Shown: piece after piece, positions 811-29,677 of the stretch
Layout: every line of letters starts with the position of its first letter
How positions within the stretch are numbered: position 1 is the stretch's first letter
From: an uncultured Coriobacteriia bacterium
GTDB lineage: Bacteria > Actinomycetota > Coriobacteriia > Coriobacteriales > QAMH01
Assembly: GCA_948466335.1 (NCBI GenBank)
Contig: CAOKAE010000015.1
Span: 1 to 39,399 of the forward strand
Direction: 5' to 3'
DNA length: 39,399 nucleotides
The notes under the pieces: model-generated
What the model was told of the DNA's origin: nothing
Seen by the model: only the letters and a program-made list of their open reading frames with translations
Database searches by the model: none
Made by a program: the position numbers and the translations under genes

Positions 811-2334
811 ATGAGACCAATGGAATTCGCAAAGCGGACGGCTGCCAACAAGGCCATCGACTACTTCATGGAAGATCCCGTTCCGCGCATCGAGAGCATG
901 ATGGCCACGGTCAACAAGATGCTTCCCGACGCGCTCTTCCCGTCGCAGCGCAAGGCCTTCACCAAGGCCATCGAGGAGCGCAACAATTGGTACCAGCTCA
1001 TATGTCGCGTGGCCGACCTCGACCCGGAAGTCGCAACGGGCCTGCTCAAGTGCTTCTTGACCGAGGCGAATCTCATTGCCTGGGACAAGCAGGAAAAGTC
1101 GCGCGAGAAGTACCAGTGCAACGTGCCCTGGGCGGTGTTGCTCGACCCGACGAGTGCCTGCAACCTGCATTGCACCGGTTGCTGGGCGGCAGAGTACGGG
1201 CACAAGCTCAACCTGAGCTACGATGACATCGACTCCATCATCAACCAGGCCAACGAGCTCGGCACGCACGTCTTCATCTACACCGGGGGAGAGCCGCTCG
1301 TGCGCAAGGCGGACCTCATCAAGCTCTGCGAGGCACATCCCGATTCCGCCTTCCTCTGCTTCACCAATGCGACGCTCATCGACCGGGCCTTTGTCGAGGA
1401 GGTCGCACGCGTGAAGAACTTCGTGCCGATTATCTCGGCCGAAGGCAGCGAGGAAACCACTGACGCGCGCCGTGGCGATGGCGTCTACCAGAAGATTGAC
1501 GCTGCCATGGACCTGCTCAAGGAGCGCGGCGTGCCCTTCGGCGTCTCCATCTGCTACACGAGCCAGAACGCCGATGCGGTATGCACCGAGGAGTACTATG
1601 ACTGGCTCATCGACAAGGGCGCCTTCTTCGCCTGGATCTTCACCTACATGCCCGTGGGCAAGGATTCGCCGGCAGAGCTCATGCCCACGCCGGAGCAGCG
1701 CGAGATGCTCTACGATTTCAATCACAAGATGCGTCATGAGAAGCCGCTGCTCACGCTCGACTTCCAGAACGATGGCGAGTTTGTGGGCGGTTGCATTGCC
1801 GGCGGGCGCCGCTACCTGCACATCAACGCCAACGGAGATGTGGAGCCCTGCGTGTTCATCCACTACTCCAACGTGAACATTCATGACGTGAGCCTGCTCG
1901 ACGCGCTGCGCTCGCCGCTGTTCATGGGCTACTACCACGGCCAGCCCTTCAACGACAATCATCTACGCCCGTGCCCGATGCTCGAGAATCCCGAGTGCAT
2001 CGAGAAGCTCGTCGAGGATTCGGGTGCGCATTCGACTGACCTGGTCCAGGAGGAGACGGTGTACGAGCTCACTGCCAAGACGCGCCCCATGGCGCAACGC
2101 TGGGCCCCGGTTGCCGAGCGCATCTGGACCGACGAGAACGACGAGCGCGCCTCCGAGCGTCATCGCGACGATCTTGGCCAGGCGACGTCGGACCTCAAGA
2201 AGTTCGAGCGTGACGGGCGCATCGTGCGCAGCGCCTTTGACGAAGAACGCGATCCGCGCAGCATCGCCGAGCGCGAGGAGGAGATGGATCGCAAGCTGCA
2301 GGAGATAACCGAAAACGAGAAGGTGCTCGTCTAG
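811..2334 (+). CDS. Radical SAM protein with SPASM-like C-terminal cysteines
   Basis: A 507-residue protein. The radical SAM signature CNLHCTGC (Cys117, Cys121, Cys124) should bind the [4Fe-4S] cluster that cleaves S-adenosylmethionine, and a GGEP motif (TGGEPLV) follows about 45 residues later. Further cysteines in the contexts GGCIAGG, VEPCVF and LRPCPMLENPEC resemble a SPASM/twitch-type auxiliary cluster region, and the last 100 residues are highly charged and helical. The roughly 110 residues before the motif are an unidentified helical domain. RBS GAGGAG precedes the start. It lies between the TetR gene and the molybdoenzyme, so it may mature an enzyme or act in the same pathway. No precursor peptide gene is visible nearby and the substrate is unknown. 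Confidence 0.85.
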   Translation: MRPMEFAKRTAANKAIDYFMEDPVPRIESMMATVNKMLPDALFPSQRKAFTKAIEERNNWYQLICRVADLDPEVATGLLKCFLTEANLIAWDKQEKSREKYQCNVPWAVLLDPTSACNLHCTGCWAAEYGHKLNLSYDDIDSIINQANELGTHVFIYTGGEPLVRKADLIKLCEAHPDSAFLCFTNATLIDRAFVEEVARVKNFVPIISAEGSEETTDARRGDGVYQKIDAAMDLLKERGVPFGVSICYTSQNADAVCTEEYYDWLIDKGAFFAWIFTYMPVGKDSPAELMPTPEQREMLYDFNHKMRHEKPLLTLDFQNDGEFVGGCIAGGRRYLHINANGDVEPCVFIHYSNVNIHDVSLLDALRSPLFMGYYHGQPFNDNHLRPCPMLENPECIEKLVEDSGAHSTDLVQEETVYELTAKTRPMAQRWAPVAERIWTDENDERASERHRDDLGQATSDLKKFERDGRIVRSAFDEERDPRSIAEREEEMDRKLQEITENEKVLV

Positions 2335-2384
2335 CACGACGGGTCACCAACACATCGGCCATGGTGCTGAGTGAGGAGGGGCAC

Positions 2385-4970
2385 ATGAGCGAAAGAAACC
2401 TAAGCCGCCGATCGTTTCTGGCCGGCACGGCGGCCACGACGGCGGCCGCATGCCTGGGTACGGGGGCGCTTCCCGCCGCCAAGGCCCTTGCCGAGAACGT
2501 CGACCCGGCCGGCGAGTGGGTGAGGACCACCTGTTCGCCCAACTGCACCGGAGCCTGCGGCCTGAAGGGCTTCGTGCACGAGGGCCAGATCAAGATGATC
2601 TCGCAGGCGTCCGACTACCCGTTCGAGCAGTACAACCCGCGCGGATGCCTCAAGGGCGTTTCCGTCAACACCATGCTCTACGGTCCGCATCGCCTCACCA
2701 AGCCCCTCGTCAAGAACGAGGACACGGGCAAGATGGAGGAGACCGATTGGGACACGGCACTCACGGCCGCCGCCGATAGGCTCAAGGCCGTCATGGACAC
2801 CTATGGCCCGGAATCCGTAGGCGTGATATGGCAGGTGCAGGGCACCGGTCACATCCAGAAGGGCTCCATCATCCGCTTATCCAACATGATGGGTTGGTCG
2901 GCCATCGGTTGTTACGAGATGAACGGTGACCTGCCCATGTTCTGGCCCGAGACCTTTGGCGTGCAAAGCGAGGAGCTCGAATCCTATTGCTGGGAAGATT
3001 CCAAGTACACCATGATCTTCGGCTCCAACGTCATGGTCACGCGTCTGCCCGACGCGCACTTCCTCAACATCTCGCGCGAAAACGGCGGTAAGGTCGTGAA
3101 CTTCGACCCCAACTACTCGGCGACTTCCGAAAAGTCCACCGAGTGGGTGCGCCTCAAGCCCGACACGGACGCGGCGTTCGCGTTGGCCGTCGCCAAGATC
3201 ATCATCGATGATGGGCTCTACGACGAGAACTTCTGCAAGAACTTCACCGACCTGCCCCTGCTCGTCGATACGGCCACGGGCAAGCGCATCGAGGCTGCCA
3301 ACGTCGCCGGCCTCTCGGCACTTCCCTCACCGGCCTACCGCACGACCTATGTGGCCGTGAACGCCGCCGGCGCGCCCTTCGCGGTCAATCCCGAGCGCCT
3401 GGGGGGCATGGAGGGCTGCACGCTCGAGTACACGGGCAGCGTGCGCCTCAAGGACGGCACGACCGTCAACGCCAAGAGCGGCTTCAGGCTGCTGCGCGAG
3501 AGCCTCGTGGGCAAGACGGCGCAGTGGGCAAGTGACACCACGAGCATTCCCGTCGAGACCATCGAGCGCATCGCCCACGAGTGCGCCACCATCAAGCCCA
3601 TGCACATCATCTTCGGCGGCGCGGGCACGCAGTGGTACCACGGCGACCTCAAGGGCCGTTCGCTCGCGCTCATCGCGGCGCTCACGGGCAACATCGGCCA
3701 GCTCGGCGGCGGCATCTCGACCTACGTGGGCCAGTACAAGACGCGTTTCATCCCCGCGTCCTGGTTCAACCCGCCGCGCATGAACAAGCACTCCATGTCC
3801 TTCCAGTACGCCGTCACCGGACGCACGCCGACGATGCAGCAAAACGCCTTCCCGCCCAATGGCCTCAAGGCTCTCGTCGTGGGTTGGGGCAATCCCATGG
3901 ACCAGCACAACGTCGCCAACTGGCTGCGCAGCGCCAAGGAGAGCGGCGAGCTCGAATGCCTCGTCACCCTCGACTTCCAGCGCACCACCACCGTCGACAT
4001 GAGCGACGTGGCCCTACCGGCCCCCAGCTGGTACGAGAAGCTCGAACTCACCACGACGCCGCTGCATCCCTGGGTGCAGCTTCAGCAGCAGATGGTCGAC
4101 CCGCCCGGCGAGGCGCGTCCCGAGATCTGGATTTGCAAGGAGCTGGCGACGCATATCGACCCTTCCTATGCAGACCAGTGGCCGGTCTTTGACGAATCCC
4201 AGGCCGAACAGGTGGCCGATGACGTGTTGCGCATGCTCCTGCAAAACGGCGGCCCCTATGTCAACCAGCTCACGGCCGAACAGCTACGCGAGGGTCCGGG
4301 CAAGCTCTGGCATGCCAATCCGGGCGAGAAGCGCATCCCGTTCTGGAGCCAGATTCACGAGGGCACGCCCTTCCCGAGCCAGTCGCTCCCCAACGCCATT
4401 GACGTGACGGCACCCTTTGTCAGGTCCGGTCGCATCCAGTTCTATCGCGACGAAGACGAGTTCCTCAGGCTCGAGGAACAGCTCCCGTGCTACAAGCCCG
4501 CCTTCGAGGATACCGAGTACGCGGCCGATCCCGAGGCGCGCACCAAGTATCCGCTCGCCTTCATCACGCGCAACAGCACCTACCGCGTACATTCGACGTA
4601 CGTGAACAATCCCTTCATGCTCGAGTTGCAAAACTCCATGCCCAAGATCTTCATGAATCCCGACGATGCCAAGGAGCGCGGCCTGGAGTCGGGAGACCTG
4701 GTCGAGGCCTACAACGGCCGCGGCAAGTGCCAGGGCGGTCTCGTGCTCGACCCGGGCATGTATCCCGGCCAGGCCATCTTCGACCAGGGCTGGTGGAGCG
4801 AGTACATGGATGGCGACAGCTACAACTCGCTCATCTATCCGTGGATCAACCCCACCAACGAGGTGTACTACCTCTCGGGCGTGTGGTCGCCCAACATGGC
4901 GTGGAACGAGTGCGCATGCAACGTCCGTCTCTTGCAGAAGGGCGGGGCGCGTAAGGAGGTCATGCAATGA
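2385..4970 (+). CDS. Tat-exported molybdopterin oxidoreductase, DMSO reductase superfamily (catalytic subunit)
   Basis: An 861-residue catalytic subunit. A twin-arginine signal (SRRSFLAG, residues 7-14) and an Ala-rich h-region direct folded export. Cys50, Cys54, Cys58 and Cys88 (CSPNCTGAC ... RGCLKG) form the N-terminal [4Fe-4S] site of bis-MGD enzymes, and the C-terminal part has the molydopterin dinucleotide-binding domain. ATG 2385 is chosen for GAGGAGGGG at 2373-2381 and because the Tat motif then sits at the N terminus; an ATG at 2361 lacks this. The next gene overlaps by 4 bp. Together with the ferredoxin and NrfD subunits it should form a membrane-bound complex exchanging electrons with the quinone pool. 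The reaction is unknown (S-oxide, N-oxide, catechol or other reduction are options). At the expected Mo-ligand position it reads GDLP (181-184) rather than the GDYS of TorA/DmsA. Confidence 0.88.
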   Translation: MSERNLSRRSFLAGTAATTAAACLGTGALPAAKALAENVDPAGEWVRTTCSPNCTGACGLKGFVHEGQIKMISQASDYPFEQYNPRGCLKGVSVNTMLYGPHRLTKPLVKNEDTGKMEETDWDTALTAAADRLKAVMDTYGPESVGVIWQVQGTGHIQKGSIIRLSNMMGWSAIGCYEMNGDLPMFWPETFGVQSEELESYCWEDSKYTMIFGSNVMVTRLPDAHFLNISRENGGKVVNFDPNYSATSEKSTEWVRLKPDTDAAFALAVAKIIIDDGLYDENFCKNFTDLPLLVDTATGKRIEAANVAGLSALPSPAYRTTYVAVNAAGAPFAVNPERLGGMEGCTLEYTGSVRLKDGTTVNAKSGFRLLRESLVGKTAQWASDTTSIPVETIERIAHECATIKPMHIIFGGAGTQWYHGDLKGRSLALIAALTGNIGQLGGGISTYVGQYKTRFIPASWFNPPRMNKHSMSFQYAVTGRTPTMQQNAFPPNGLKALVVGWGNPMDQHNVANWLRSAKESGELECLVTLDFQRTTTVDMSDVALPAPSWYEKLELTTTPLHPWVQLQQQMVDPPGEARPEIWICKELATHIDPSYADQWPVFDESQAEQVADDVLRMLLQNGGPYVNQLTAEQLREGPGKLWHANPGEKRIPFWSQIHEGTPFPSQSLPNAIDVTAPFVRSGRIQFYRDEDEFLRLEEQLPCYKPAFEDTEYAADPEARTKYPLAFITRNSTYRVHSTYVNNPFMLELQNSMPKIFMNPDDAKERGLESGDLVEAYNGRGKCQGGLVLDPGMYPGQAIFDQGWWSEYMDGDSYNSLIYPWINPTNEVYYLSGVWSPNMAWNECACNVRLLQKGGARKEVMQ

Positions 4971-5644
4971 GATACGCGATGGCCATAGACCTTGACCGCT
5001 GCATCGGATGCAGGACCTGCGCGGTCATATGCAAGGATCACAACGCGGAGCCCCGGGGCATCTGGTGGAACCGCGTCTTCTCGCCGGGTGCTCCCGAATA
5101 CGGTACCTCGGTTATCGTGGACGGCATGCCCCGCATGGAATTCGTGCCCATCAGCTGCCAGCATTGCGAGAACGCGCCGTGCCAGCAGGTGTGCCCGACG
5201 GGCGCCACCTACACCGACGACACGGGAACCGTGCTCGTCGATTACGAGAAGTGCATCGGCTGCCGTTACTGCATCACGGCATGCCCCTACGAGGTACGAC
5301 AGTTCAACTGGTCCAAGCCCGACGGCGTCGAGGGCGTCGATGGCGAGTATCGCTGGGGATACCCCGAGGACTACCGCCAGGACGGGCGCCTCGTCTACAC
5401 GCCGGTGCGTCCCGAGGGCGTCGTGGAGAAGTGCACCTTCTGCGTCCAGTACACCAACCAGGGCGGCATTCCGGCCTGCTGTACGGGCTGCCCGGCAAAC
5501 GCTCGCATCTTCGGTGACATCGAGGATCCGGAGTCCGAAATCTCGCAGTACATGTCCGGGCGTCAATGGCTCGTCCTCGGCGAGTCGTTCGGCACCAAGC
5601 CCAAGGTGTACTACTTGCCTTCGACGCGTGGAGAGGGGGAGTAG
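4967..5644 (+). CDS. 4Fe-4S ferredoxin-type electron-transfer subunit (DmsB/NrfC-like)
   Basis: A 225-residue protein with the cysteine pattern of four [4Fe-4S] clusters: CIGCRTCAVIC near the N terminus, CQHCENAPCQQVCP, CIGCRYCITACP, and a C-terminal CTFC ... CCTGCP group. This is the electron-wire subunit of DMSO reductase-type complexes, passing electrons between the membrane anchor and the molybdenum subunit. It has no export signal of its own, as is usual for partners that hitchhike with a Tat substrate. The start overlaps the stop of the catalytic gene (ATGA at 4967-4970), with AAGGAGG 7-8 bases upstream, so the two are translationally coupled. Confidence 0.93.
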   Translation: MRYAMAIDLDRCIGCRTCAVICKDHNAEPRGIWWNRVFSPGAPEYGTSVIVDGMPRMEFVPISCQHCENAPCQQVCPTGATYTDDTGTVLVDYEKCIGCRYCITACPYEVRQFNWSKPDGVEGVDGEYRWGYPEDYRQDGRLVYTPVRPEGVVEKCTFCVQYTNQGGIPACCTGCPANARIFGDIEDPESEISQYMSGRQWLVLGESFGTKPKVYYLPSTRGEGE

Positions 5645-5646
5645 CC

Positions 5647-6945
5647 ATGACGGAGCAAACTCAACATACGAGGAAATGGCCCATCATCCTGGCCGCCGTC
5701 TTCATCGCGGTGGGCTGTGCGGCATGGATCTGCCAGCTCACGATGGGGCTTCTCGTCGGGTCGGGCATGAGCAACACCTTCGCGTGGGGCCTCATGATCG
5801 CGGTCTTCGCGTTCCTCGTGGGCTTTGGCGCAGGTAGCCAGTTCGTCGCGTCGTACATCGTGCTTGCCAACCGCAAGGACCTCATGCCCTACGTCAAGAC
5901 CGCGCAGGCCGTCGCGCTTGCCGGTGCCATCGGTGCGGGCGTGGCGATTCTCATCGACCTGGGGCACCCGGCCCACATCATGGCGATGCTCACGGGTCCC
6001 AATCCCACCTCGGCGCTCACCTGGGACATGATTGCGCTTACGGTGTTCATCGTCATCGCGATCATCAACGTCATCGCCATCGCGCGAAACAGTAAGGCGC
6101 TCAAGTTCTGGATGGTCTTGGGGCTCATCAGCGCCTTCGCGTTGCAGCTCGTCGAGGGCCTGCTCTTCGCCCTCATGGAGGCGCGCGTGTGGTGGCATAG
6201 CTTCATCATGCCCGTCGACTTCATCGTCGTCGCCGTGGTGTGCGGCCTTGCCATCGCGGTCATCGTCTGTGCGCTCAAGAAGGACGAATTCAAGCCCGAG
6301 GCGCTGCACGACTTGAGCTTCCTGCTTGCCGTGGCCATCATCGTCCACTTGGTGCTCGCCGTCATCGAGCTTGCGATCGTCTGCTTTGGCGGCAGCGCGG
6401 CCGATGGTGGGGCACTTGCGGCAATCGGAAGCGTCTGGCTGTTCTACGTGCTAGAGCTCGGCTTGCCGCTGGCCGCCGTGTTCGTGCTGCTACTTGGCAA
6501 GAAGGATCCCGCCAAGAGCATGCTCGTCGGTGGCGTGTTGACCGTCGTCGGCATGTTCTTCCATCGGCTCATGCTGCTCTATCCAGCCTTCGCCAGTCCC
6601 ACGCTCTACGTGCCGCTATCCAACGAGCCGTCCCCGAGCTGGGCGCTTCCGGCTTCGACGGGCCTGTACAATCACACAGGCAACGCCTTCGAGATAGCCC
6701 AGGGCTACATTCCCAACTTCTTCGAGTGGGCGAGCATGCTGCTGCCGCTCGGCGTTGCATTGGCGGTGTTCCTCGTAGTCGTGTGGTTCGTCGCCAAGGT
6801 CGGCAAGCCCGCAGCCGAGGCAAGTGGCGCCCAGGATACCATCGAGGTGAAGGAGACGGTAGAGGTGCACGAGTCTGCTGACGACCCCGAGGTGGCCGAG
6901 GTAAAGGAGGCTCTTGTCGAGCAGGAGAGGGGTGAGGACCGATGA
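5647..6945 (+). CDS. NrfD/DmsC-type membrane anchor subunit
   Basis: A 432-residue polytopic membrane protein with roughly nine or ten hydrophobic segments, starting at about residue 12 and ending near residue 400, then an acidic cytoplasmic tail rich in Glu and Val. By position after the ferredoxin gene and by overall character it is the quinol-interacting anchor of the molybdoenzyme complex (NrfD/PsrC/DmsC superfamily). It carries no obvious haem-ligand pattern. ATG 5647 follows the previous stop by 2 bp and uses the GAGGGGGAG at the end of the upstream gene as RBS. The downstream lipoprotein gene overlaps its stop by 4 bp. The exact subfamily was not resolved by eye. Confidence 0.85.
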   Translation: MTEQTQHTRKWPIILAAVFIAVGCAAWICQLTMGLLVGSGMSNTFAWGLMIAVFAFLVGFGAGSQFVASYIVLANRKDLMPYVKTAQAVALAGAIGAGVAILIDLGHPAHIMAMLTGPNPTSALTWDMIALTVFIVIAIINVIAIARNSKALKFWMVLGLISAFALQLVEGLLFALMEARVWWHSFIMPVDFIVVAVVCGLAIAVIVCALKKDEFKPEALHDLSFLLAVAIIVHLVLAVIELAIVCFGGSAADGGALAAIGSVWLFYVLELGLPLAAVFVLLLGKKDPAKSMLVGGVLTVVGMFFHRLMLLYPAFASPTLYVPLSNEPSPSWALPASTGLYNHTGNAFEIAQGYIPNFFEWASMLLPLGVALAVFLVVVWFVAKVGKPAAEASGAQDTIEVKETVEVHESADDPEVAEVKEALVEQERGEDR

Positions 6946-25823: not shown

Positions 25824-25908
25824 ACACTTTCATGAGCGAACTTTGGCGGAAATTCACACTTTCATGAGGGAACTTTCGAAGAAACTCGCATTTTTATGAG
25901 GGAATACG
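25824..25908. repeat. 32-bp-period tandem repeats, 2.7 copies
   Basis: Units start at 25824, 25856 and 25888. The first two share ACACTTTCATGAG-GAACTTT and continue with AAA-TC; the third is diverged (TTTTTATGAGGGAA). They lie between hslO and the antitoxin promoter. There are no spacers, so this is not CRISPR. They may bind a regulator or mark a past insertion. Confidence 0.75.
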
Positions 25909-25924
25909 CTTGTTTTCTAGAGAT

Positions 25925-25952
25925 GCTATACTTAATTACGAATTTGTATAGC
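25925..25952. promoter_or_regulatory. Toxin-antitoxin operator over the -10 box
   Basis: GCTATAC (25925-25931) and GTATAGC (25946-25952) are perfect inverted repeats with a 14-bp centre. The left arm overlaps a -10-like TATACT (25927-25932), and the right arm abuts the RBS AAGGAG (25953-25958). This is the usual place for antitoxin autorepression. Confidence 0.6.
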
Positions 25953-25963
25953 AAGGAGCTGCT

Positions 25964-26299
25964 ATGGAACAAGTGCAGATGAACACGCGCATCGGGGTCG
26001 AGGTCAAACGCGTTGGAGACGAGGTGCTTCGTCGCTATGGCTATTCACCCTCATCGGCGGTGCAGGCTCTCTGGGCTTATCTCGCTGAGCATAATGAGCC
26101 ACCCGCCTTCATGCCATCGAAAGCAACGCCAAACGACGTCGAAGCCAGGAAGCGTGAGGTTGCTGACGGGGTCGGACTTGCTATAAGGCTTGCAGTCGAA
26201 GCTGGGGTGATTTCTTCCGGTGCAGGTTGGGTTGATGAGCTCGATTATGACGAGCTGCGAGAATTGGCCTGGGAGGAACGAGGCGTCTTCGATGACTGA
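25964..26299 (+). CDS. RelB/DinJ-like antitoxin
   Basis: A 111-residue protein. Its start, QVQMNTRIGVEVKRVGDEVLRRYGYSPSSAVQALWAYL, resembles the ribbon-helix-helix DNA-binding domain of the RelB/DinJ family (TRI.-V...--VL...G-S.S.AV.A). The C-terminal part is acidic (ELDYDELRELAWEERG) and would wrap the toxin. RBS AAGGAG is 5 bases before ATG 25964. It overlaps the PIN toxin gene by 8 bp, a typical coupled antitoxin-toxin order. Pairing of this antitoxin type with a PIN toxin is less usual than with RelE/YafQ. Confidence 0.78.
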   Translation: MEQVQMNTRIGVEVKRVGDEVLRRYGYSPSSAVQALWAYLAEHNEPPAFMPSKATPNDVEARKREVADGVGLAIRLAVEAGVISSGAGWVDELDYDELRELAWEERGVFDD

Positions 26300-26774
26300 T
26301 AGTCACCTCACCCTGCTTATCGATACAAATATCTGGCTAGATTATTATTTGGGGCGTAAGGGTGCCGCAGATGCTGCGGCTGCCGTCCAATGCGCGCTTG
26401 ATCATGAGGATGCGATTGTTGTCACGCCGGGTATTCTCAAGGACGTGTTCTATCTTGTCGGTTCAACGATTAAAAGAAGGGCGCGCAAAGAGGAGGGGAG
26501 CCTGAGTGAAAGCTCTGCCCTGGTAGCTAACGAGGCCTCATGGGCGTGCCTGTCAAGCATGCAAGGCTTGGCTGCTGTTTTGAACCAGGGCTTCGGCGAG
26601 CATTTGGAAGCGAGCGCCTTGCGCCCGAAGAATGCAGATTACGAGGATAACTTGCTTCTCGCCACAGCGAGGAATGCCAAACTTGATTACATCATCACGA
26701 GTGATAAGGGCCTGCTGGCAAACGAGGTGGTGCCGGCGCTCGCGCCGGCAGAGTATGCGGGGCTGAAGCGATAA
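26292..26774 (+). CDS. PIN-domain toxin (VapC-like ribonuclease)
   Basis: A 160-residue PIN-fold protein. Acidic active-site residues appear as Asp11 (LLIDTNIWLDYY), Asp119 (ADYEDNLLLATA) and Asp138 (YIITSDKGL); these coordinate Mg2+ for RNA cleavage. ATG 26292 lies inside the end of the antitoxin gene, and a longer upstream frame is only antitoxin shadow. VapC-type toxins cleave tRNA or rRNA when freed from the antitoxin. A GC-rich hairpin lies in its last codons (26731-26750). It converges on the 655-codon unknown gene. Confidence 0.85.
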   Translation: MTDSHLTLLIDTNIWLDYYLGRKGAADAAAAVQCALDHEDAIVVTPGILKDVFYLVGSTIKRRARKEEGSLSESSALVANEASWACLSSMQGLAAVLNQGFGEHLEASALRPKNADYEDNLLLATARNAKLDYIITSDKGLLANEVVPALAPAEYAGLKR

Positions 26775-26827
26775 AGGAAAAAGGGAGCACAAGCCTTTTT
26801 ATACAGATGCTTACGAGAATGGGATGC

Positions 26828-28795
26828 TCAGGCCTGTTTTGAAATGCTGTTACATTTTGCGACGTATGCGCCAAGCTCCCTCTTGTTGTTCTCGAGTTTT
26901 TGCAGCTCATTGCTAATTCGAAAGATGTCATCGGAAATAAAGCGCTCTTGCTCTCGTACCCAATTGTGCTCACCGGATTCGATGACGGGGCTCTTCATTT
27001 TTGAACGTATTTCCTCCAGCTGTGATTCAAGTCGCTTTTTCTCTTGTTGATATTTTGAGAGGACGGGATCAAGTGATGTGACGATATGTTCTTCAGCTTG
27101 CCGCCTTATGTCTTGGCATATTTCAAGTAGCGAGACGATAACGGACTGCAGTTTGGTAAAGGCAGCTATCGATTTAAGCTCATTAAAGAGATTGAGAGCT
27201 ACTCTTGCTTTCTTGATACGAAACTGAATTAAGTCGAAGTTTTTGTATGTGCGAATAAAATATCCTGGGTACGGTATAGTCTCATCTGCGAGGGCGTCAA
27301 TGCCCTCTGCTTGTCCAAACCGTTTATATAGCTCTGTGAGCAGTTTTTGGCGTGCTAATCCAACGCGAACGAAATCGACGGAATTGTTATTCTCGGAATT
27401 TAGGCTAAATGTGCTCTGTATCTTCGATTGCAGCTCAAGGCTATAGTTTAGTCTCTGGTTGTCCTGATCCCTGCTAACGCTCATGACAAAGTTCAATATT
27501 TGCTGTTTATCTTCGTTGCTGAGGTCAACAGCAGAAGGACACCTGTATACATCCGATGGGTTCCATTCGTCATACAAAACGAGGCTAAGACTATCTTGGG
27601 AGACGAGGTCGTTAAAACAATTGAGGTCCGTGAATTGCAAAAACGTAGACGCACATGAGACCATACGAAGCAAGTCTTTTAGCTCGATAAGGGCACGAGC
27701 AAAATACTTTTCAATAAATGCGACTTCTCCAATGGCATTGAACTCCTGCCAGTATTCAACTGCGTTTTCGAAGCATAATTTATAACTTGCAGGGGCGAGT
27801 TCGTACATGTCGGTGAAACCGGCCAATTCGAACAAGTGAGCTATGTTGTAAAAGATAATCAGCGGCGCATTAACTGCGTTTATGCCTTTGTAACATAGTA
27901 TTGATAAGAAATAGCTTGATCGACCGAATCCGAAGTTCGTCTTTAGTTCAATTTTCAAATCACCTGATGCGTCGAGATTTATCTGGAAATTATCCCACCC
28001 CAGTTTTCTAGATGAGTAAGCTACGACTTGGGGGTCTGCATCATAGCGGGCGTAAAGATCTTCAAGAATGGATGCCTGATAGTACTCAGGTAAATTGTCA
28101 ATGAGGCACTGATTTCCCGGCGTGATGACATAATCAAGTTCTGAACTCCCATAAGCTCCATTGAAACAACGACAATAGCTCTTTTTCGAGAACAAGCCAG
28201 GGACTAAAGAACGCGCCGTTTGTACAAATTCAGCGAATCTTTTGTCGTAATCGTCGAGGCATGCCACAAGCTTTCCACGCATTGTATCTAGTTTATTAAG
28301 GAGAGAGGCTGCATTCTTCCGGTTAAAGTCGCTGGGCAATTTCGAACCCCTCTCCAGGCTTTCTTCCTGGAGAGGGGCTTGGCGTATTGCATTTTCCCGA
28401 TCAGCGAGATATGAGACCGTATTGGGAGACAGCCATTGCGCATGGGGAGATACAGGGACCAAAACCCTAGGGTGCTGCTGACCGCATGTGGCCGCCAGCA
28501 GATTGTCATAAGTCCTAAGGACTCGTTGCATGTAGGTGTTATCTGCATCTCGATAAAAGGGCTGTGCGAAGTCTGGATTCTCTGTGGCAACAAGCTCGTC
28601 GAATAGCTCTTTGGCCCTTCGATGATCCCAGCCATGTATCGTGGCGCTCATTTCTTTGAACTTATCGACGATTTGCGAATTGTATGGAATACGCTCATAG
28701 CAAACGAACAGCTCTCCGCTTTCCTTGCGCTTAATCAGGCACATGACGTCAGTTGCAATTTCGCCAGAATCGATATGGGAGCTGGGGCTATCCAA
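26828..28795 (-). CDS. Unrecognised 655-residue protein with C-terminal coiled coil, likely acquired and phase-variable
   Basis: I do not recognise this family. The 655-residue product has no signal peptide or membrane helices. The N-terminal part (residues about 10-80) looks like mixed alpha/beta, the middle contains LKTNFGFGRSSYFLSILCYKG, and about residues 560-650 are strongly helical and charged (SKYQQEKKRLESQLEEIRSKM and EQERFISDDIFRISNELQKLENNKREL), suggesting a coiled coil. By eye the gene is much AT-richer than its neighbours and uses codons rare elsewhere, so it was probably acquired. TTG 28795 is the only good start in frame before the upstream TGA, with AAGGCAGGA as RBS; an ATG lies 17 codons in. 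Its promoter spacer contains a C14 tract. It sits beside a toxin-antitoxin pair. A defence role is speculation. Confidence 0.8.
   Translation of the reverse strand: MDSPSSHIDSGEIATDVMCLIKRKESGELFVCYERIPYNSQIVDKFKEMSATIHGWDHRRAKELFDELVATENPDFAQPFYRDADNTYMQRVLRTYDNLLAATCGQQHPRVLVPVSPHAQWLSPNTVSYLADRENAIRQAPLQEESLERGSKLPSDFNRKNAASLLNKLDTMRGKLVACLDDYDKRFAEFVQTARSLVPGLFSKKSYCRCFNGAYGSSELDYVITPGNQCLIDNLPEYYQASILEDLYARYDADPQVVAYSSRKLGWDNFQINLDASGDLKIELKTNFGFGRSSYFLSILCYKGINAVNAPLIIFYNIAHLFELAGFTDMYELAPASYKLCFENAVEYWQEFNAIGEVAFIEKYFARALIELKDLLRMVSCASTFLQFTDLNCFNDLVSQDSLSLVLYDEWNPSDVYRCPSAVDLSNEDKQQILNFVMSVSRDQDNQRLNYSLELQSKIQSTFSLNSENNNSVDFVRVGLARQKLLTELYKRFGQAEGIDALADETIPYPGYFIRTYKNFDLIQFRIKKARVALNLFNELKSIAAFTKLQSVIVSLLEICQDIRRQAEEHIVTSLDPVLSKYQQEKKRLESQLEEIRSKMKSPVIESGEHNWVREQERFISDDIFRISNELQKLENNKRELGAYVAKCNSISKQA
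28347..28377. repeat. Strong hairpin inside the unknown gene
   Basis: CCCCTCTCCAGG (28347-28358) and CCTGGAGAGGGG (28366-28377) form a perfect 12-bp stem with a 7-nt loop, in otherwise AT-rich coding sequence (codons for APLQEESLERG). It could pause transcription or mark an insertion. Confidence 0.75.
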
Positions 28796-28869
28796 CGAGA
28801 GTCCTGCCTTTCGTGGCCGGCGTGTTTCCAGAGGGCGTCTATTGGTTTTGAATACGCGTTGCTCTCGTC

Positions 28870-28901
28870 ATTATCGGGGGGGGGGGGGGTAAATTCGTCA
28901 A
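28870..28901 (-). promoter_or_regulatory. Candidate phase-variable promoter with C14 spacer tract
   Basis: On the minus strand TTGACG (28901-28896) and GATAAT (28875-28870) are separated by 20 bp, made of AATTTA plus fourteen C. With eleven C the spacer would be the optimal 17 bp. Homopolymer slippage would therefore tune transcription of the 655-codon gene, as in known poly-G/poly-C promoters. The predicted leader is about 68 nt. Box recognition is by eye. Confidence 0.6.
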
Positions 28902-28920
28902 GCGACTTGTAACGCTTGAC
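28897..28920. promoter_or_regulatory. Inverted repeat over the -35 box
   Basis: GTCAAGCG (28897-28904) and CGCTTGAC (28913-28920) are perfect inverted repeats with an 8-bp centre. The left arm overlaps the minus-strand TTGACG box, so a repressor or activator may bind here. Confidence 0.5.
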
Positions 28921-28954: not shown

Positions 28955-28960
28955 TATAAT
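28955..28960 (+). promoter_or_regulatory. -10 box for the papain-like-fold candidate
   Basis: TATAAT on the plus strand 27 bp before the start at 28988, with only a weak -35 (CGCTGA, 28932-28937). Confidence 0.5.
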
Positions 28961-28987: not shown

Positions 28988-29677
28988 ATGCACGAATCGT
29001 TCAAGACCTGGGAAACCAACAAGACGCTCGAGCATGCGCACAAGATTCAGGAGCGCGAGGCGATTCCCCAATCCACGTGGGATGTCGCGCCGAAGGATGC
29101 GTACTGCATCTTCATGCTCTTCAACCTGGAAGCTGCCGATGACGAAGGTCATTGCATTTTGGCACTCGGCCCGACCGATGGCGCTCTCGAGACCTATTCG
29201 TACTATCGCCACAGCACCAAGATCGAGGCGCCCGGCATCATGGCGTGTCTGAAGGATCCCATGACTTTCGAGCGGCTATGCGATGGGAGCGGCTGGATCG
29301 TCCACGGGCAGCCCGGCAACTACTGGAACGAGCATGTGAACGCCGCTATCGCCCTATGGTGCGACAAGGCAGCCTACGAGAAGGCCCGTGCCTACGCCGA
29401 AGCCAAGAAGGCAAACACGGGTACGTACAACCTCGTCACCTACAACTGCCTGACCTTCGTTGACGATGCACTCAAGCAGGCGGGTATACGTCTTGCGACA
29501 AAGAGTGGCAAGCGCGTGCGCACCATCGTTCCCAAGGAAGCGTTCTTCGAAATCGACAATGTCGAAGGAGCCCATAAGTTCGAGGCGTGGAAGTACTGGT
29601 TTGACTTGGGCAAGGCTCCGGATAACGGCCTGCGCACCATCGACGATGTGCCCGGCCAGGACAAGCCTCTCGAGTAG
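28988..29677 (+). CDS. Uncharacterised protein, possible permuted papain-like (NlpC/LRAT-type) fold
   Basis: A 229-residue protein with no signal peptide or membrane helix. DDEGHCILALGP places His55 in a GH context, and TGTYNLVTYNCLTFVDDALKQAG has Asn153-Cys154 at the start of a helix. A GH strand followed later by an NC-helix is the arrangement of permuted papain-like enzymes (LRAT, DUF4105-like and related amidases or acyltransferases), so a Cys/His hydrolase or transferase is plausible. AAAGGAG precedes the ATG. Base composition is closer to the chromosomal norm than the neighbour at 26828-28795. It converges with the cysteine synthase-like gene. The fold call is inference. Confidence 0.7.
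   Translation: MHESFKTWETNKTLEHAHKIQEREAIPQSTWDVAPKDAYCIFMLFNLEAADDEGHCILALGPTDGALETYSYYRHSTKIEAPGIMACLKDPMTFERLCDGSGWIVHGQPGNYWNEHVNAAIALWCDKAAYEKARAYAEAKKANTGTYNLVTYNCLTFVDDALKQAGIRLATKSGKRVRTIVPKEAFFEIDNVEGAHKFEAWKYWFDLGKAPDNGLRTIDDVPGQDKPLE

Follow-up and report, generated by a model that had tools for sequence, protein, structure and literature searches.

The window analysed here, a stretch of 39,399 nucleotides from an uncultured Coriobacteriia bacterium, carries a pure homopolymer of 14 C residues on the minus strand (28876-28889; G14 on the plus strand), which we propose as a slippage site. Read along the minus strand from 28901 to 28870, the site is TTGACG-AATTTA-C14-GATAAT; in plus-strand order this corresponds to ATTATC (28870-28875), G14 (28876-28889), TAAATT (28890-28895) and CGTCAA (28896-28901). 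The minus-strand -35-like hexamer TTGACG (28896-28901) and the -10 box GATAAT (28870-28875), the latter abutting the tract, each match the consensus at five of six positions. They are 20 bp apart with 14 of the 20 spacer bases being C, exactly as an earlier reading of the letters alone (the sequence-only reading) had described. A standard promoter scan, restricted to spacers of 16-18, gave no report of this TTGACG/GATAAT site because its spacer is 20. The arrangement, an uninterrupted run of one base set between a -35 and a -10 box ahead of a gene, is of the opc/porA type. A layout like that of the Bordetella fim promoters is possible, as C14 abuts GATAAT and a conserved palindrome lies upstream, GTCAAGCG-ACTTGTAA-CGCTTGAC (28897-28920), which is a candidate operator.

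The gene downstream of these boxes, on the minus strand at 26828-28795, encodes an orphan protein of 655 aa with a C-terminal coiled coil. Its TTG start codon at 28795 is credible because AGGA (28802-28805) precedes it by 6 nt and the initial Met of the protein aligns with an internal Met of two full-length homologues (MDSPSSH vs. MSSPYEH). The tract is located upstream of the gene and outside its coding frame, the two being separated by an in-frame TGA at 28870-28868, and any switch must therefore act on transcription. A reading-frame switch of the kind found in Bifidobacterium breve pilus genes is ruled out by the same stop codon, as the open frame begins past the tract. The fold of the 5'-UTR is ordinary (z = -0.63).

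Run statistics were derived from a 279-kb sample of the window genome and from pattern searches. The sample contains 97,610 G/C runs of length 1, 217 of length 5, nine of length 6 and three of length 7, each further base lowering the frequency by a factor of about four to six. The expected number of runs of at least 14 is about 5 × 10⁻⁶ per window, or at most 1 × 10⁻³ with a very lax decay, which bears out the earlier statement that a pure run of this length is unlikely by chance. Boxes matching at five or more of six positions and so placed occur at 1.2 × 10⁻⁴ of 557,000 insertion points. The C14 run with its flanking boxes is far beyond chance.

The genome of a sister species, an uncultured Coriobacteriia MAG (contig CATLBX010000060.1), is 94-96% identical to the window genome in the flanks on both sides of the locus. 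At the orthologous site it reads ATTATC-G13-TGTTTACGACAAGCGACTTGTAACGC, that is C13 vs. C14, an indirect comparison, between two species, in which each assembled tract length is uncertain by at least one base. Three blocks are intact in otherwise diverged intergenic DNA: ATTATC with the tract, an inverted-repeat block of 21 bp, and the promoter and ribosome site of the divergent gene. The homology on the left stops at 25906, after GAGGGAATA, and that on the right starts at 28870 with the -10 box, so that along the minus strand it ends exactly after GATAAT. The segment in between (25907-28869) is replaced in the sister by genes for an ankyrin protein and a UvrD-like helicase. Since the homology ends exactly at the -10 box and different genes stand behind it, the promoter and tract have stayed in place and the cargo has been exchanged, and the switch would belong to the locus and not to a particular gene. 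Conservation of the tract and the -10 box in a species with different downstream genes also argues for a real promoter; the promoter position proposed earlier in front of the 655-codon gene holds.

In the sister assembly the locus is divided between two contigs: C30 leads from an Hsp33 gene through the different genes to the ATTATC-G13 motif, and C60 starts at the same motif and continues into the divergent gene. As the 14-bp core motif occurs once in the window genome and, in exact form, in the sister only at the end of C30 and the start of C60, we infer that these contigs abut at the locus, a join that is not assembled sequence. A G tract that is difficult to read or present in several lengths would be expected to break an assembly at this point, and the "G's end" effect (PMC9187656) is offered as a comparison. 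The tract could also be an artefact of assembly or sequencing, by two-colour poly-G or a mis-join, as some contigs of the window assembly finish in poly-G (G50, G52) or in garbled GC-rich sequence and one internal junction looks garbled; it is, however, internal, has clean sequence on both sides and recurs at the orthologous site of an independent assembly, which makes this explanation extremely improbable. Some of the runs at contig ends, these included, are probably sequencing artefacts. Poly-G or GC-garbled ends were seen in the window genome (G000) at the ends of contigs C2 and C8 and the starts of C22 and C27, and in the sister (G002) at the end of C42, a pattern that fits Illumina reads failing within G tracts or just past them. 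The internal junction (G000:C1:145846-145904; L013) has G11, GC garble and C12 in a near mirror arrangement and is a possible misassembly of two outward poly-G artefacts. The proposal that every contig end marks a genuine G tract could not be sustained, since most of the sampled ends are repeats or ordinary sequence.

The sister comparison also bears on which upstream element the tract might space. Because TTGACG sits in the palindrome and the sister has TTGTCG in its place, the distance that the tract sets may be that to a regulator site and not to a -35 box. Its variable length would then separate the -10 box from a regulator that binds the palindrome (28897-28920), much as in Bordetella fim, with TTGACG simply part of the palindrome and the switch dependent on an activator or a repressor. 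In line with this, the two species have an identical 21-bp block with the palindrome core (28899-28919) amid intergenic DNA that has diverged, and the poly(C) beside the -10 box of B. pertussis fim3 sets expression (14C on, 13C off; PMC10172299). Nevertheless, the regulator is hypothetical, the palindrome could serve the divergent gene, and for the window genome TTGACG matches a -35 box well, so we consider this account possible but doubtful.

The divergent gene (28988-29677, plus strand) is conserved, encodes 229 aa and has its own -10 box, TATAAT at 28955-28960, and SD sequence. As the tract lies within the divergent intergenic region, it could act on this gene or through a G-quadruplex or i-motif, and G14 is able to form quadruplex structures. 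Against an action on the divergent gene, the tract is about 65 bp upstream of its -10 box, and the homologues of the gene in other genera are without such a tract; we regard the whole proposal as very unlikely.

In order to be neutral, the tract would have to be one outcome among many of a lineage-wide expansion of G/C runs, with no effect on expression. Runs of at least 9 G/C number 24 in the window genome and 22 in the sister, several of them outside promoters, and no such run occurs in the genus's third genome. About 14 other clean internal runs of length 9-12 are found in the window genome, and lengths at orthologous tracts in the window genome and the sister are 9/10, 9/12, 9/6, 9/2 and 9/4. 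Two further tracts in the sister occupy promoter spacers, namely TTGACT-6-G11-1-GACAAT before a signal-peptide DUF5648 protein (L050 1499-1509) and TTGACA-9-G10-TATTCT in front of a short ORF that has a strong SD and ATG (L069 2577-2586). Promoter-like contexts are only modestly enriched among all tracts, and some tracts are probably neutral because others in the two genomes lie between convergent genes or within genes. For the present site, however, neutrality is rather unlikely: of about 15 clean internal tracts in the window genome C14 is the longest, it directly adjoins a -10 box that is conserved, its coincidence with both boxes has a chance of about 1 × 10⁻⁴ per site, and the -10 box survives despite the exchange of the DNA beyond it. 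Among 397 genomes of the order, C8 followed by KATAAT was found in four, and only the window genome and the sister have it as a long tract; the remaining two matches are C9, one of them at a contig end.

The explanation that we favour, with moderate confidence, is a slipped-strand phase-variable promoter of the Neisseria opc / Bordetella fim type that drives exchanged accessory genes. Support comes from the improbability of the run and boxes by chance, from ATTATC-G13 and the 21-bp block in the sister with homology ending after GATAAT, and from the split of the sister assembly at the shared single-copy motif. The length differences of orthologous tracts elsewhere, the two further promoter-spacer tracts in the sister and the limitation of a long C tract with KATAAT to two of the 397 genomes point in the same direction. 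Counted against it are that only two species share the site, with lengths one base apart, that the -35-like box differs in the sister (TTGTCG), that the assembled spacers are long in both species (20 and 19 bp), neither being a predicted ON length, and that other tracts lie outside promoters, with a modest enrichment of promoter contexts overall.

In such a phase-variable promoter, replication slippage would add or remove C residues in the tract and so alter the distance from GATAAT to the upstream element, be it the TTGACG -35-like box, the overlapping palindrome or both. Sigma-70 promoters usually have spacers of 16-18 bp. By this rule, minus-strand transcription of the cargo is predicted to peak near C10-C12 (16-18 bp), and the assembled C14 (20 bp) to leave it weak or off. 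The sequence-only reading had proposed that the loss of three C would give the ideal spacer of 17 bp, and the predicted optimum at C11 stands.

Most known slippery promoters come from pathogens among the proteobacteria and control surface antigens. In Neisseria meningitidis opc, the length of a promoter poly-C tunes transcription, and changes in its length, for instance from 11C to 12C or 14C, are selected (Sarkari 1994, as cited in PMC6389960). Opc resembles the present site in having the poly-C tract in its promoter, and differs in that its product is an outer-membrane protein, whereas the cargo here looks intracellular and is exchanged between species, and switching here is predicted. Bordetella fim2 and fim3 likewise have a C-stretch of similar length in the promoter and an upstream regulatory box, but are BvgA-activated fimbrial genes of a proteobacterium (PMC1891110, PMC10172299). 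Bifidobacterium breve UCC2003 is, like the organism studied here, a Gram-positive gut actinobacterium with G-tracts; an ON/OFF slippage switch has been shown experimentally for its pilus G-tracts, and promoter-spacer G-tracts are mentioned as well (PMC9187656). The proven tracts of B. breve are, in contrast, intragenic, acting as a reading-frame switch, and the species belongs to a different class of Actinomycetota. The earlier remark that this kind of actinobacterium offers no established example thus stands for Coriobacteriia, where the literature searched contained no slipped-strand promoter, and has to be qualified for actinobacteria more broadly in view of the B. breve switch.

The 655-aa protein had no credible match in PADLOC, Pfam, NCBIfam, PHROG or PDB families. 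Its relatives are confined to three other genomes among 397 of the order, at about 30% identity; none was found in phages, plasmids, viral contigs or the phylum sample, a GTDB scan returned nothing, and a single-sequence AlphaFold model (mean pLDDT 40.8) was unusable. In the two complete loci the homologues lie between a phage-type integrase and a protein weakly similar to Mad5 or a type I specificity subunit. These neighbours and the low local GC (48% vs. 62%) suggest that the 655-aa protein is mobile and possibly defence-type cargo. A surface location is unlikely, and the parallel drawn earlier with switched surface genes probably does not carry over to the encoded protein. In other Coriobacteriales, a mobile two-gene unit (L104 3-3417) was observed in which an HsdS/Mad5-like gene of 490 aa overlaps a 662-aa homologue, with an integrase adjacent; it is a possible uncharacterised defence module.

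In the sister, the gene immediately following the promoter encodes an ankyrin protein of 506 aa, and a second one a UvrD-type helicase of 1026 aa with topoisomerase zinc ribbons, which resembles anti-phage defence proteins such as GajB (ankyrin and helicase genes on C30, L065, at 4539-6059 and 1366-4446); the two form a candidate defence pair. Variable defence hotspots have conserved flanking genes and exchanged cargo. The locus shares with them its fixed flanks and swapped cargo, including the GajB-like helicase and ankyrin protein, and differs from them in that the promoter, slippery tract included, is part of one of the flanks. We suggest only tentatively that the conserved phase-variable promoter is a fixed expression slot, which would place exchanged accessory or defence genes under stochastic on/off control as a form of switchable immunity. 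What sets the locus apart is that horizontal exchange has replaced the genes to be controlled and left promoter and tract conserved, with cargo that resembles phage defence and not a surface antigen. If this is true, any cargo exchanged into the locus would be switched stochastically, a simple hedge against the cost of immunity genes; promoter-spacer phase variation would extend to the Coriobacteriia, understudied gut commensals, and this promoter would be the first of its kind reported in the class.

The exchanged segment of the window also contains, at 25964-26774 on the plus strand, a small gene that overlaps a PIN-domain gene. The second of these (26220-26774) encodes a PIN_3 domain and is a likely toxin; the first (25964-26299) has no Pfam match and is, from gene order, its putative antitoxin partner. 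The two probably form a toxin-antitoxin pair.
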